From the NCBI GenBank assembly GCA_018713255.1, contig DVFL01000040.1, positions 124,001-188,000 of the forward strand: 64,000 nucleotides of DNA. The letters run 5' to 3'. Made by a program: the position numbers and the translations under genes. Below are positions 7,471 through 45,056 of the stretch, piece by piece (positions within the stretch are counted from its first letter, which is position 1; each line of letters starts with the position of its first letter). A model generated the notes under the pieces. It saw only the letters and a program-made list of their open reading frames with translations. It made no database searches and was not told where the DNA came from. The stretch comes from Candidatus Cottocaccamicrobium excrementipullorum. Lineage in GTDB: Bacteria; Bacillota; Clostridia; Lachnospirales; Lachnospiraceae.

Positions 7471-7539
7471 TATGTAATATCTTCCACCCCCTGCCAGGCC
7501 GAAGAAGGCTGAGCGGCGGAAAGGAAGACATAGCGTAAA

Positions 7540-7830
7540 GGCGAAGAGGAAGAGGAGTATATTTAATGCTTCTGGCAGAGAGAACCGCTCACCGGCTGAA
7601 AAGCGGTTTCAGGCAGCTTAAATAGAAGGTAGCTTCTGAGCCCAGATTCTGAACCGGCGGCCGTTTGCAGCGGCAGGCTTTAATAGGAATCTGCGGGAAC
7701 GTCCCGTTACAGACGAAAGAGATTGCCAAAGAAGGCTGCTTTTTGAGAAAGGAAAAGCGCTGCTGCGGCAAATGAAGGTGGTACCGCGGTAATTCGCCCT
7801 TTGCATTGATCAGATGCAAAGGGTTTTTTT
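7540..7830 (+). promoter_or_regulatory. T-box leader, probable tRNA-Val sensor
   Basis: The conserved T-box AAGGTGGTACCGCGG lies at 7775-7789; the UGGU at 7779-7782 would pair with the ACCA end of uncharged tRNA-Val. Upstream, Stem I is recognisable: the loop E strand AGTA (7556-7559) opposite GAA (7625-7627), enclosed by TATTTAA pairing with TTAAATA. One base after GAA comes GTA (7629-7631), a valine codon in the specifier position, followed by a purine. The 3' end is the terminator at 7797-7830, whose 5' arm CCCTT can alternatively pair with AAGG of the T-box. Low Val-tRNA charging should therefore raise expression of the Gre factor and valS. Confidence 0.88.
7797..7830 (+). terminator. T-box attenuator terminator
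   Basis: Perfect 10-bp stem CCCTTTGCAT / ATGCAAAGGG with a 7-nt loop, followed by seven T (7824-7830). It is the off-state hairpin of the T-box leader. Confidence 0.9.
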
Positions 7831-40815: not shown

Positions 40816-41334
40816 ATGAGACTGAATGAAGCATTTTATCATAGGGATTGTCTGCAGGTTGCCCCTGATTTAGTTGGAAAAATGCTGGTTCGCCGTTTGG
40901 AGGACGGCAGCCAGATTCGCCTGAGAATTTCGGAAACAGAAGCCTACCGAGGCGAAGAGGATACCGCATGTCATGCCCATAAAGGGAAAACCAACCGAAC
41001 AAAAGTGCTTTATGGGGAGCCTGGACAGATTTATGTGTATTTATGCTACGGGATTCACTGGCTTTTAAATGTGGTTACCGGAGAGCTTGGACTTCCTCAG
41101 GGCGTGCTGATCAGGGCATGCACGGAGGCGGATGGCCCGGGAAAGCTGACGAAAAAGCTGAAGGTGGATAAGACGCTGAACGATACTTCTATTTTAACCA
41201 GTCCGTGGCTTTGGATAGAGGATGACGGAAAGCATTATCAGGTGATTCCAGATACCAGAGTGGGAATCGGGTATGCCAGCGAGGAAGATCAAAAGCGGCT
41301 GTGGCGGTTTAAACTGGGAGGAGAGATAAAATGA
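40816..41334 (+). CDS. 3-methyladenine DNA glycosylase (AAG/MPG family)
   Basis: A 172-residue monofunctional glycosylase removing alkylated or deaminated purines. RISETEAYRGEEDTACHAH carries the catalytic Glu, then TNRTKVLYGEPGQIYVYLCYG with the intercalating Tyr and YGIHWLLNVVT, and VLIRACTE. It is slightly short at the C-terminus for the family. Start ATG 40816 is preceded by AGGAG; the longer frame overlaps the previous gene. It overlaps coaE by 4 nt. Confidence 0.92.
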   Translation: MRLNEAFYHRDCLQVAPDLVGKMLVRRLEDGSQIRLRISETEAYRGEEDTACHAHKGKTNRTKVLYGEPGQIYVYLCYGIHWLLNVVTGELGLPQGVLIRACTEADGPGKLTKKLKVDKTLNDTSILTSPWLWIEDDGKHYQVIPDTRVGIGYASEEDQKRLWRFKLGGEIK

Positions 41335-41924
41335 TCGTCATCGGAATTACAGGAGGAGTGGGAGCGGGAAAGAGCCAGATTTTGGATTGGCTGAAACAAC
41401 GGTGGAAAGTGCCGTTCATCCGGACGGATGATACGGCCAAAAAGCTCATGGAGCCTGGACAGGAAGGCTACCGCCAAGTGATCCAGGTTTTTGGGAAGAG
41501 CATTGTTAATCCTGATGAATCGATCTGCCGGCCGGCTTTGGCCAAATTGATTTTTCAGAACGAGGAAGCAAGAAATCAGGTAAACCAGATCACCCATCCT
41601 TTGGTGTGGAATCGGGTAAAAGAAGAACTGGAGGATTTGGCTTCTCAAGGCTGCCGGGCAGCAGCGGTTGAATCTGCGGTGTTTGATACCAGCGGCGCCG
41701 CCCTCTGCGGCCAGATCTGGTATGTATACGCGCCGGAAGAAGTAAGGATTCAAAGACTAAAAAAAGACAGAGGATACTCTCAGGAGCGTTGTCTGTCCAT
41801 GATCTCCAGTCAGAATACCGACCAGCAGTTCAGGGATATCAGCAGTCAGATCATAGACAACGGCGGTTCCTGGGAACAGACGAAGAAGCAGCTGGATCAG
41901 ATGATGCAGAATATTTTGGCTTAA
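41331..41924 (+). CDS. coaE: Dephospho-CoA kinase
   Basis: A 197-residue P-loop kinase for the last step of coenzyme A synthesis. Walker A is GGVGAGKS; RTDDTAKKLMEPGQEGY, the conserved HPLVWNRVKEEL and the lid LKKDRGYSQERCLSMISSQ follow. It is translationally coupled to mpg through ATGA. polA-mpg-coaE order resembles the polA-mutM-coaE cluster of other Firmicutes, with AAG replacing MutM. Confidence 0.93.
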   Translation: MIVIGITGGVGAGKSQILDWLKQRWKVPFIRTDDTAKKLMEPGQEGYRQVIQVFGKSIVNPDESICRPALAKLIFQNEEARNQVNQITHPLVWNRVKEELEDLASQGCRAAAVESAVFDTSGAALCGQIWYVYAPEEVRIQRLKKDRGYSQERCLSMISSQNTDQQFRDISSQIIDNGGSWEQTKKQLDQMMQNILA

Positions 41925-41988
41925 CATAAAAAGGAAAGGTGAAAATATTCTGAAAATTTAAAAGATAAAAAGTTTTTTTCAAAAACTA

Positions 41989-42022
41989 TTGACAAAGTTC
42001 AAAAAATATGGTATTTTATAAT
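41989..42022 (+). promoter_or_regulatory. Promoter of the pseudoknot-array RNA
   Basis: -35 TTGACA (41989-41994) with -10 TATTTT at 17 bp (42012-42017). A perfect TATAAT lies 5 bp further on (42017-42022; 22-bp spacing). The 45 nt upstream is rich in A and T tracts, like an UP element. Confidence 0.7.
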
Positions 42023-42023
42023 C

Positions 42024-42409
42024 ACAATAAAACTCATTAAGACATGTGGATAAAGAAAGTCTTAAAACTCAATGATAAGAGGATAAATTATCAGAATTAC
42101 TCAAGAACAAGAGGATAAAAAGTTCAGCCAAGAACCGAAAAGGTTCCCACAATGACAAGTGGTAAAAAAGTCAGACCACAATGATAAGTGGTAAAAAAAT
42201 CAAACCTCAATGATCAGAGGAAAAAAGATCAGCTCAATGGCAAGAGCATAAAAAGCCAAACCTCCCGGATAAGAGGAAAAAAGATCTGGAACACCTCAAC
42301 AGGAAAGAGGAAAAAAATCCTGAAAACTGGTCGTTGAGCAAGACCAGAAAAAAAATAAAGGGATGCTCAAAAAGGGATAGCTTCCAGAAATGGAAGCTAT
42401 CTTTTTTTT
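42024..42409 (+). ncRNA. Unrecognised structured RNA: tandem array of about ten H-type pseudoknots
   Basis: About 386 nt, A-rich and without a plausible ORF. Each unit has P1 (3-6 bp), a short AA loop, the 5' strand of P2, AA, the 3' strand of P1, an A-rich loop of ~6 nt, then the 3' strand of P2. Units with P1 and P2: 42033-42065 (CTCAT/ATGTGG with one bulge; TAAGAC/GTCTTA); 42068-42093 (CTC/GAG; TGATAA/TTATCA); 42100-42125 (CTC/GAG; GAAC/GTTC); 42147-42173 (CCAC/GTGG; TGAC/GTCA); 42176-42202 (CCAC/GTGG; TGAT/ATCA); 42205-42231 (CCTC/GAGG; TGATC/GATCA); 42232-42258 (GCTC/GAGC; TGGC/GCCA); 42261-42289 (CCTC/GAGG; CCGGAT/ATCTGG); 42294-42322 (CCTC/GAGG; CAGGA/TCCTG); 42327-42370 (CTGGTC/GACCAG; TTGAGCA/TGCTCAA). 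A plain hairpin GAACC/GGTTC (42132-42146) sits between units 3 and 4. A terminator closes it. Function unknown. Confidence 0.88.
42376..42409 (+). terminator. Terminator of the pseudoknot-array RNA
   Basis: Perfect 11-bp stem GATAGCTTCCA / TGGAAGCTATC with a GAAA tetraloop and eight T (42402-42409). Confidence 0.95.
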
Positions 42410-42414
42410 CGCTA

Positions 42415-42443
42415 TTGAATTCTGGCGGGTTTTATATTACAAT
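42415..42443 (+). promoter_or_regulatory. Promoter of the MBL hydrolase gene
   Basis: -35 TTGAAT (42415-42420), 17 bp, -10 TACAAT (42438-42443). The ~95-nt leader contains a hairpin CTGCCT / AGGCAG (42499-42519). Confidence 0.65.
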
Positions 42444-42545: not shown

Positions 42546-43343
42546 ATGAGATTAGTCAGCATTGCAAGCGGCAGCAGCGGAAACTGCATTTATGTGGGTT
42601 CTGAACGGACTCATGTACTGATTGATGCCGGCATCAGCAATAAGAGAATTGAGCAGGGATTGAATGAAATTGGATTAAAGGCAGGAGAGCTTGACGGGAT
42701 CTTGATTACCCACGAGCACTCAGATCATATTAAAGGACTTGGCGTCCTGGCCAGAAAGCATAAGATTCCCATCTATTCTACGGCAGAAACCCTGGAGGAA
42801 ATCGCAGCCAAGGCTTCTTTGGGGCAGTATCCTAAAGAACTTTTTCGGCCCATTCTTCCAGATGTGGATTTTGTTGTTGGAGATCTGGAGATCAAACCTT
42901 TTCGAATTGATCATGATGCGGCGAATCCGGTGGCCTATCGGGTGCAGAATGGACGGAAATCTGTGGCGGTGGCCACAGATATGGGACATTATGACCAGTA
43001 TATTGTGAATCATCTGCAGGGACTGGATGCTTTGCTGCTGGAGTCCAATCATGATGTACGCATGCTGGAAACAGGTCCGTACCCTTATTATTTGAAACGA
43101 AGAATTTTGGGAGATCATGGACATTTGTCCAACGAGACCTGCGGAAGGCTGTTAAATTGTATTCTTCACGATAATCTGAAAAAAATTTTGCTTGGACATT
43201 TGAGCAAGGAAAATAATTATGAAGAGCTGGCGTATGAGACGGTCCGTCTTGAAATTACCCAGGGCGAGACGCCTTACCAGGCAGGAGATTTTTCCATTGC
43301 GGTAGCAGGACGAGATCGTATGTCAGAAATTATCACCGTGTAA
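42546..43343 (+). CDS. MBL-fold hydrolase, WalJ/YycJ type
   Basis: A 265-residue metallo-beta-lactamase-fold protein. The metal motif is THEHSDH (His56, His58, Asp60, His61) with later ligands in FRIDHDAANP, ATDMGHY and LLGHLSKENN. The opening SIASGSSGNCIYV and the segment LLESNHDVRMLETGPYPYYLKRRI are typical of WalJ, a putative nuclease linked to cell-wall and DNA-replication control in Firmicutes. The walRK genes are not nearby. Confidence 0.85.
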   Translation: MRLVSIASGSSGNCIYVGSERTHVLIDAGISNKRIEQGLNEIGLKAGELDGILITHEHSDHIKGLGVLARKHKIPIYSTAETLEEIAAKASLGQYPKELFRPILPDVDFVVGDLEIKPFRIDHDAANPVAYRVQNGRKSVAVATDMGHYDQYIVNHLQGLDALLLESNHDVRMLETGPYPYYLKRRILGDHGHLSNETCGRLLNCILHDNLKKILLGHLSKENNYEELAYETVRLEITQGETPYQAGDFSIAVAGRDRMSEIITV

Positions 43344-43376: not shown

Positions 43377-43646
43377 ATGAAAATTATTATTACGGTAGTA
43401 GGAAAAGACACAGTGGGAATTATTGCCAGAGTTTGTACTTATCTGGCGGAGAAGCAGGTAAACATTCTGGACATTTCCCAGACGATTGTTCAGGGGTATT
43501 TTAACATGATGATGATCGCAGATATGTCTGCATCCCCGGAATCTTTTGAAGAATTGTCCGGAGGGCTGGAGCAGGCAGGAGAAGAGATCGGCGTTAAGAT
43601 CAAATGCCAGAGAGAAGAAATCTTTACTAAGATGCATCGGATTTGA
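43377..43646 (+). CDS. ACT domain protein, UPF0237 family
   Basis: An 89-residue protein made of one ACT domain (VVGKDTVGIIARVCTYLAEK, VNILDISQTIVQGYFNMMM), a small-molecule-binding fold usually sensing amino acids. UPF0237 genes regularly stand next to UPF0210 genes, as here, and a role as sensor subunit is likely but unproven. GGAG lies upstream of ATG 43377. Confidence 0.9.
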   Translation: MKIIITVVGKDTVGIIARVCTYLAEKQVNILDISQTIVQGYFNMMMIADMSASPESFEELSGGLEQAGEEIGVKIKCQREEIFTKMHRI

Positions 43647-43691
43647 TGGAAACAGAAACAGCGGAAAACAGGAGAAAAGGCGGAATAATCC

Positions 43692-45056
43692 ATGATTAAT
43701 ATTTACGAAGTAAACGAAACCAATAATATGATCGAGCATGAAAATCTGGATGTGCGGACCATTACCCTGGGAATCAGTCTGATGGATTGCATCGATTCAG
43801 ATCTTGACCAGGTGAATGAGAAGGTTTACGAGAAGATTACCCGGGTGGCGAAAGATCTTGTGGCTACAGGAGAAGCCATTGAAAAGGATTTTGGAATTCC
43901 CATTGTGAATAAGCGGATTTCTGTAACCCCTATTGCTTTGATTGGCGGTTCGGCATGCCGCTGTCCGGAAGATTTTGTTTCCCTGGCCAGAACTCTGGAC
44001 CGGGCGGCAAAGGAAGTGGGCGTGAATTTTATCGGAGGATATTCTGCTCTGGTGAGCAAGGGCATGACGAAAGCGGACGAGAATTTAATTCGTTCTATTC
44101 CTCAGGCTCTGGCAGAAACTGAGCGGGTATGCAGTTCTGTTAACGTCGGTTCAACGAAAACGGGATTGAATATGGACGGCGTCAAATTGATGGGCCAGAT
44201 TGTAAGGGAAACCGCGGAAGCGACAAAGGAGGCAGATTCTCTGGGGTGTGCCAAGCTGGTGGTATTCTGCAATGCTCCTGATGATAATCCTTTTATGGCC
44301 GGAGCGTTTCATGGCGTTACCGAGGCGGATGCGGTAATTAACGTAGGAGTCAGCGGTCCCGGCGTGGTGAAGGTGGCTCTGGAAAAGGTGCGGGGCGAGA
44401 ATTTTGAAGTGCTTTGCGAAACCATAAAAAAGACCGCTTTTAAGATTACCAGAGTAGGTCAGCTGGTTGCGCAGGAGGCTTCCAGCCGGATGGGAATTCC
44501 TTTCGGCATCATTGACCTGTCTTTGGCGCCTACGCCGGCGGTGGGAGACAGCGTGGCGGAAATTCTTCAGGAAATCGGACTGGAGCGGGTAGGAGCCCCT
44601 GGAACCACAGCGGCCTTGGCCTTGTTAAATGATCAGGTAAAAAAGGGCGGAGTGATGGCTTCGTCTTACGTAGGCGGGTTAAGCGGAGCGTTTATTCCGG
44701 TAAGTGAGGATCAGGGAATGATTGATGCCGTAAATGCTGGAGCGCTGACCATAGAAAAGCTGGAGGCTATGACCTGTGTCTGCTCGGTAGGGTTGGATAT
44801 GATTGCCGTACCAGGGGATACAAGTGCTTCTACGATTGCAGGCATTATCGCGGATGAGGCGGCGATCGGCATGGTAAATCAGAAAACTACGGCGGTGCGC
44901 ATTATTCCGGTTATTGGAAAAGGCGTGGGAGAAACCGTGGAGTTCGGCGGACTTTTAGGATATGCGCCGGTGATGCCGGTTAATTCTTTCTCCTGCGAAA
45001 AATTTGTTTCCCGGGGCGGAAGAATTCCTGCTCCTATTCACAGTTTTAAAAATTAG
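43692..45056 (+). CDS. PFL family protein, UPF0210
   Basis: A 454-residue protein of the UPF0210 family, which has a pyruvate-formate-lyase-like barrel fold. Family segments are [70 protein letters not shown] and [23 protein letters not shown]. No glycyl radical motif is seen, so it is not a PFL enzyme proper. It pairs with the ACT protein 45 nt upstream; its biochemical role is not established. Confidence 0.92.

Follow-up and report, generated by a model that had tools for sequence, protein, structure and literature searches.

A candidate stand-alone RNA built of about ten H-type pseudoknots between coaE and a walJ-like gene in part of one Lachnospiraceae genus

What kind of element is a row of about ten small pseudoknots lying between two protein-coding genes of a Lachnospiraceae bacterium, and what might it do? 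The question is raised by a 64,000-nt stretch of the genome of Candidatus Cottocaccamicrobium excrementipullorum (here the window), in which an original prediction, made from the letters alone, described a noncoding RNA of about ten consecutive H-type pseudoknots sharing one layout and differing in their stem sequences. Put simply, this bacterium of a gut type would share with some close relatives a small RNA of some ten pseudoknots, and these are kept while their letters change.

The intergenic gap is arranged in the order coaE, CodY-box-like site, promoter, ten pseudoknot units, terminator, and walJ-like gene. Pfam identifies CoaE in the upstream neighbour (41331-41924) and a metallo-beta-lactamase fold in the downstream one (42546-43343), which we take to be of the walJ kind and name accordingly. 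The elements between both genes are read on the plus strand. Unit 1, the conserved 5' unit (42033-42064), combines the first stem P1 CTCAT/ATGTG, with one mismatch, and the second stem P2 TAAGAC/GTCTTA. It is followed by unit 2 (42067-42093; P1 CTC/GAG, P2 TGATAA/TTATCA) and unit 3 (42099-42125; P1 CTC/GAG, P2 GAAC/GTTC). Between units 3 and 4, a segment at 42126-42146, seen in the sequence and in the nested fold, forms the plain hairpin GAACC-GAAAA-GGTTC and is perhaps a decayed unit. The row continues with unit 4 (42147-42173; P1 CCAC/GTGG, P2 TGAC/GTCA), unit 5 (42175-42202; P1 ACCAC/GTGGT, P2 TGAT/ATCA), unit 6 (42205-42231; P1 CCTC/GAGG, P2 TGATC/GATCA), unit 7 (42232-42258; P1 GCTC/GAGC, P2 TGGC/GCCA), unit 8 (42261-42289; P1 CCTC/GAGG, P2 CCGGAT/ATCTGG), and unit 9 (42294-42322; P1 CCTC/GAGG, P2 CAGGA/TCCTG). 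It is closed by the conserved 3' unit, unit 10 (42327-42370; P1 CTGGTC/GACCAG, P2 TTGAGCA/TGCTCAA), which has a long A-rich third loop.

Chaining of pseudoknots along this region returned ten units followed by the terminator, so that the ten consecutive pseudoknots stand at 42033-42370, where they had first been described, as does their division into nine regular units and an irregular first one. The optimal chain replaces unit 3 by a competing pairing at 42122-42145; unit 3 is nonetheless present. The first unit is indeed less perfect, owing to a U-U mismatch in its P1 in the window; the four relatives carrying the array read ATGAG instead, and those of G002 and G005 are mismatched differently, one step inside. 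The chain scores 71.0, against a mean of 6.9 (sd 4.2, maximum 22.7) in 1000 dinucleotide shuffles. Since stretches scored elsewhere in the 64 kb average 26.6 and reach 64.3 without being arrays, presumably an effect of their higher G+C, the raw score alone does not discriminate. Both the composition-matched shuffles and a scanner for A-rich loops do separate the array from the background: with the P1 sequence left free and a third loop of at least 70% A, the scanner finds at least three units per 200 nt in array loci only, and at most two per 200 nt in the fetched non-array loci (3.49 Mb, both strands counted). The nested structure also beats the shuffles (z -2.6 to -3.9), which means that part of the signal consists of plain hairpins. 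We regard the pseudoknot array as near certain as a structure, and any function assigned to it as putative.

The own genome holds a single copy of the array. Among the 11 genomes of the genus, DNA matches were found in five, namely the window genome, G001, G002, G004, and G005, with 10, 14, 11, 9, and 9 chained units, respectively, and in all five the array lies between coaE and walJ. The same five are matched by a dimer covariance model, R1, built from 18 hand-picked unit pairs of these very arrays, which match it by construction. The coaE-walJ gap of G003, G007, G008, G009, and G010 is without the array, the two gene matches being 26-222 nt apart, and there is none at the coaE-walJ position of G029, from another genus. 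In G006, the contigs C15 and C64 (L241 and L023) both end inside the gap, one just upstream of the promoter position and the other downstream of the terminator position; the upstream CodY-like box remains, promoter and array are not seen, and R1 has no match in this genome. These contig breaks look as if a repeated or mobile element occupied the array position. A tree of walJ DNA, weakly supported, places the array-less G008 among the array genomes, and may agree with either one gain or a gain plus a loss.

Covariation inside one molecule, as originally read in the window, also holds between molecules, among the orthologous units of the five genomes, and the pairing of P1 and P2, on which the prediction hung, is kept for both stems in the homologous loci. 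The P1 pattern detects 49 units in the five genomes, all of which were examined for P2 (a 50th match of the pattern lies in the terminator region). A P2 of at least 4 bp is present in 43 of the 49, against 32% (sd 6, maximum 51%) when the 3' parts were permuted within each genome 1000 times. Two G005 units have no P2 whatsoever and four other units keep just 3 bp, so that not every unit is under strict selection. At the G005 locus L003, read on the reverse strand, two adjacent ACAC/GTGT units retain P1 and the A-rich loop and have lost P2, an apparent decay intermediate.

As the inner pairs of P1 served to find the units, they are no independent test. The outer pair, on which the pattern set no condition, is standard in 24 of 34 distinct units, with changes on both sides in 13, a count that rests on the 35 selected units of alignment A1. 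Of the 49 units, this alignment leaves aside four that come first in their array, three that nearly duplicate included ones, and seven whose spacing is irregular or whose P2 is short or lost; its 87% pairing is flattered by the choice of units, and the fair count is the one over all 49. Across the five genomes, units 1, 6, 7, 9, and 10 provide 244 cells, of which 92.2% pair; column shuffles give 88.3%, and none of the 500 came as high. Both-side changes occur in 9 of 50 pairs of the orthologous units, a number reached by 0 of 500 shuffles; for further pair types, 34 of the 500 shuffles do as well. When the partner is shifted by 1-3 columns, pairing falls to 27-43%. The P2 pairs of unit 1 are all invariant in the five genomes; gaps in two of these limit the reading of the outermost pair to three.

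The individual unit follows the consensus N C W C - A A - N R R Y - A A - G W G N - A W A A A A N - R Y Y N, that is, a 4-bp P1 of the form N-C-W-C/G-W-G-N, a P2 of about 4 bp with an almost free sequence, and an A-rich third loop of about 7 nt. Among 53 chained units, P1 has 4 bp in 31, the first loop (L1) 2 nt in 32, P2 4 bp in 25, the second loop (L2) 2 nt in 27, and the third (L3) 6-8 nt in 35. Successive chained units are separated by a median of 3 nt, and 13 of the 48 linkers measure 0-1 nt; in the three linkers of 21-28 nt, the chain passed over a unit or hairpin. Tandem Repeats Finder sees units 70-82% alike with a period of 29 nt, and stem energies make them individually weak. The C-G pairs at P1 positions 2 and 4 are present in 32 of 34 units each, partly through unit selection, and in all 35 units with an 8-nt loop the final A of L2 is invariant, as are two A's of L3. 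In ToxI, the antitoxin RNA of a type III toxin-antitoxin system, stem S1 has 4 bp and conserved middle G-C pairs, against which A19 and A20 are placed (PMC8860590), and in CptI an A-rich loop lies in the minor groove (PMC4627078). By analogy, the invariant A's of the array would sit where an A-minor pseudoknot needs them, forming a triplex in the minor groove of P1.

The array looks like an independent RNA gene with its own promoter and terminator. A promoter scan places a strong promoter, TTGACA-17-TATTTT with a TG before the -10, at 41989-42017, and a promoter is found in five of five array genomes, reading TTGACA-17-TATCTT by eye in the four relatives. An intrinsic terminator with an 11-bp stem and T8 is read from the sequence at 42376-42409; the scan for terminators listed this stem on the opposite strand only. 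A separate promoter-like site belonging to the walJ-like gene follows at 42415-42443, also from the promoter scan. These three elements point to a separate RNA gene, as does the fact that the array RNA stays 71-81% identical in the matched stretches while the CoaE proteins are 58-62% identical to that of the window. A role as a cis leader of walJ is unlikely, given the intervening terminator and the separate walJ site, the like of which recurs, by eye, in the array-less G008, G009, and G010. Protein coding is disfavoured by the 29-nt period of the units, which is not a multiple of 3.

Upstream of the promoter, a CodY-box-like site, AATATTCTGAAAATT (41944-41958), lies 89 nt before unit 1 and has one mismatch to AATTTTCWGAAAATT, the CodY consensus. 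It is the best of five sites with at most two mismatches in the window, where 0.67 would be expected, the other four having two mismatches each. The box is matched at 13-14 of its 15 positions in G002, G004, G005, and G006, and is not clear in G001. All 11 genomes of the genus encode CodY itself. Thus, transcription of the array may answer to the nutrient state through CodY.

No relative was found outside the genus, in searches that are biased towards sequence. A DNA search of 299 family genomes returned four weak matches beyond the genus, all of them chance matches in unrelated sequence. R1 gave four weak matches beyond the genus in 397 family genomes, none with an array, and matched the own genome only among 392 genomes of the order and 398 of the phylum; these large runs scored the best 14 of 275 to 2551 candidates per genome, among those listed. 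Since R1 leans on the letters of P1 and L3, arrays with other letters could be missed. Exact pattern scans of genome contigs (at least 117 stretches) and of viral contigs (60 stretches, and 32 in a further scan for a CAC variant) turned up, among the matches listed, arrays only in L081 and L167, which are those of G002 and G005. Phages and plasmids gave one weak chance match each (E 0.4 and 0.3). This narrow distribution, in one genus, would be possible for a dispensable or recent gene.

The array fits none of the catalogued RNA families, as had been suspected: it has no Rfam 15 match at the gathering threshold and no credible weak one, and searches blind to pseudoknots would see short hairpins only. 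Weak matches with an E of up to 10 number 16, all far below gathering, the lowest E being 0.076, and 14 of them overlap the terminator. In open-access literature on rows of pseudoknots, on type III systems, and on the discovery of structured RNAs, no bacterial stand-alone pseudoknot array came up by title and abstract; among the papers listed on rows of pseudoknots were viral cases, tmRNA, CptIN, and work on pseudoknot prediction and on mRNAs. Short rows of pseudoknots in one RNA are a feature of the upstream pseudoknot domain in the tobamovirus 3' UTR and of the aphthovirus 5' UTR, but these belong to viral genomes and have few units, and we know of no sequence relation between them and the array. 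CsrB/RsmZ-type sponge RNAs are multivalent and variable in copy number, as the array is, and consist of simple hairpins with a fixed GGA motif; in the array, in contrast, GGA is retained neither from unit to unit nor from species to species. A CsrA sponge is rejected on that account, as GGA occurs in some units only and many units of G001, G004, and G005 read GAGTATAAAA. An Hfq-bound sponge RNA is rejected as well, Hfq (PF17209) being without trace in 11 of 11 genus genomes, with controls positive in 5 of 14. The suggestion of a ribosome sponge gains no support, since the Shine-Dalgarno-like GAGG is not conserved among the units or among the species, which also speaks against a mimic of that motif. 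The tmRNA shares with the array its similar length and the presence of several pseudoknots in one bacterial RNA, including small tandem pseudoknots pk4a/4b in some Cyanobacteria (PMC1168896). However, ARAGORN found no tmRNA here, that is, neither a tRNA-like domain nor a tag frame.

How could such a string act? Our preferred reading, tentative and close to an even call, is that of a stand-alone RNA, multivalent in its binding, which would titrate a protein specific for the A-minor pseudoknot shape. Because the stem letters are free, the shape and the positions of the A's are fixed, and the copies are many and variable in number, repeated recognition of the shape by a protein would be the natural candidate, making the RNA a sponge or decoy. 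The string, ~350-390 nt long with its ten short H-type pseudoknots, would display many copies of one shape rather than of one sequence, and the platform would titrate an RNA-binding protein or an endoribonuclease. The diversified stems would keep adjacent units from mispairing or recombining away. In the way it acts, it would come closest to the antitoxin RNAs of type III systems, with the difference that it would act in trans and has no toxin partner next to it. With somewhat more reserve, we propose that the array stands for a new class of bacterial RNA, a stand-alone string of at least ten shape-identical, sequence-diversified pseudoknots that would serve a pseudoknot-reading protein as a decoy, multivalent and blind to sequence. 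Such an RNA may have descended from type III antitoxins with the loss of the toxin, or may be a form of them that works as a general antidote.

A single array unit is built much like ToxI or CptI. The type III RNAs (ToxI, CptI, AbiQ antiQ) also consist of tandem small H-type pseudoknots with a 4-bp first stem, set the A's of a long loop against that stem, and have a terminator after the repeats; unlike them, with their reported 2 to 5.6 repeats, the array has ~9-14 diversified units. Its closest rival reading would therefore be an orphan, trans-acting type III (ToxIN/CptIN-like) antitoxin, whose cut units each block a ToxN-like RNase encoded elsewhere or on mobile elements, which we consider unlikely. 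It gains from a ToxI of the same genus, L249 in G010, whose unit dimensions are close to those of the array (P1 4, L1 2, P2 4, L2 0, L3 7), and from ToxN (PF13958), which exceeds the cut-off in three of the 11 genomes of the genus (and stays below it in G007); the four ToxN proteins tested match AbiQ in PADLOC. Moreover, in the array-bearing G004, a ToxN/AbiQ-type gene lies behind three pseudoknot units whose linkers are alike and whose stems differ (L248, in G004:C78 upstream of 41936), which makes diversified units compatible with a type III RNA. L248 goes unreported by Tandem Repeats Finder, and repeat-based searches would thus miss this antitoxin. Further ToxN/AbiQ loci are L247 and L251 of G008, with two units and about one, respectively, by eye.

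Against this, there is no toxin gene beside the array, where Pfam gives CoaE upstream and the metallo-beta-lactamase downstream, and PF13958 is found in just one of the five array genomes, with none in G000 (a count covering PF13958 toxins in assemblies 84-97% complete). The linkers are very short, some of 0 nt, and do not provide the single-stranded overhangs that flank each pseudoknot in type III RNAs; according to the ToxI study, a core without such overhangs shows no ToxN binding (PMC8860590). Two A's also separate P2 from the 3' strand of P1, where L249 has none. L249 holds 3.1 copies of a 37-nt repeat that are 98% alike, against the 70-82% of the array units, a difference that weighs softly, as the L248 units are diversified. 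A type III antitoxin as usually defined is thus rejected, by the missing downstream toxin, the single PF13958-bearing array genome, and the very short linkers. It may nevertheless work like such an antitoxin, given the ToxI-like size of its units and the diversified units of L248.

The decoy reading also has to be weighed against a structural or nuclease-blocking RNA, in which the string protects or carries the conserved 5' and 3' units as the active parts. Conservation across the five genomes is among the highest in the first and last units, and the middle ones vary in number and sequence, as this would have it; but the geometry and the fixed A positions that the middle units keep through many changes would then go unexplained, and we hold it to be quite unlikely. 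A sensor of a ligand, ion, or temperature, in which many weak pseudoknots fold cooperatively, would make sense of the weakness of the single units, and their outline resembles that of the preQ1-I aptamer, a small H-type pseudoknot with an A-rich third loop. Unlike this aptamer, the array is tandem and has no ligand-pocket loop, and neither preQ1-I nor any other riboswitch appears among the covariance-model matches up to E 10. Its invariant letters are limited to the P1 C-G pairs and the A's, which are possibly structural, and no cis gene is evident, with a terminator and the separate walJ promoter-like site coming next, all of which makes a sensor improbable. Lastly, a selfish or neutral repeat, a functionless product of tandem duplication, is very improbable: it would suit the restriction to one genus, the varying unit number, and the absence from the gap of five genus genomes, but not the compensatory changes, the conserved promoter and end units, or an RNA that remains alignable at 71-81% identity despite 58-62% in CoaE.

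If real as an RNA, the array offers about 50 natural variants of one minimal pseudoknot, from which the needs of the fold could be learned. It makes testable whether bacteria titrate a protein with arrays of one RNA shape instead of one sequence, and is of interest for the origin of type III antitoxins and the possible loss of their toxin. As to the rest of the window, a T-box leader at 7535-7804 scores above the Rfam gathering threshold, and beside walJ, at 43377-45056, an ACT-domain protein is followed by a DUF711 protein according to Pfam.
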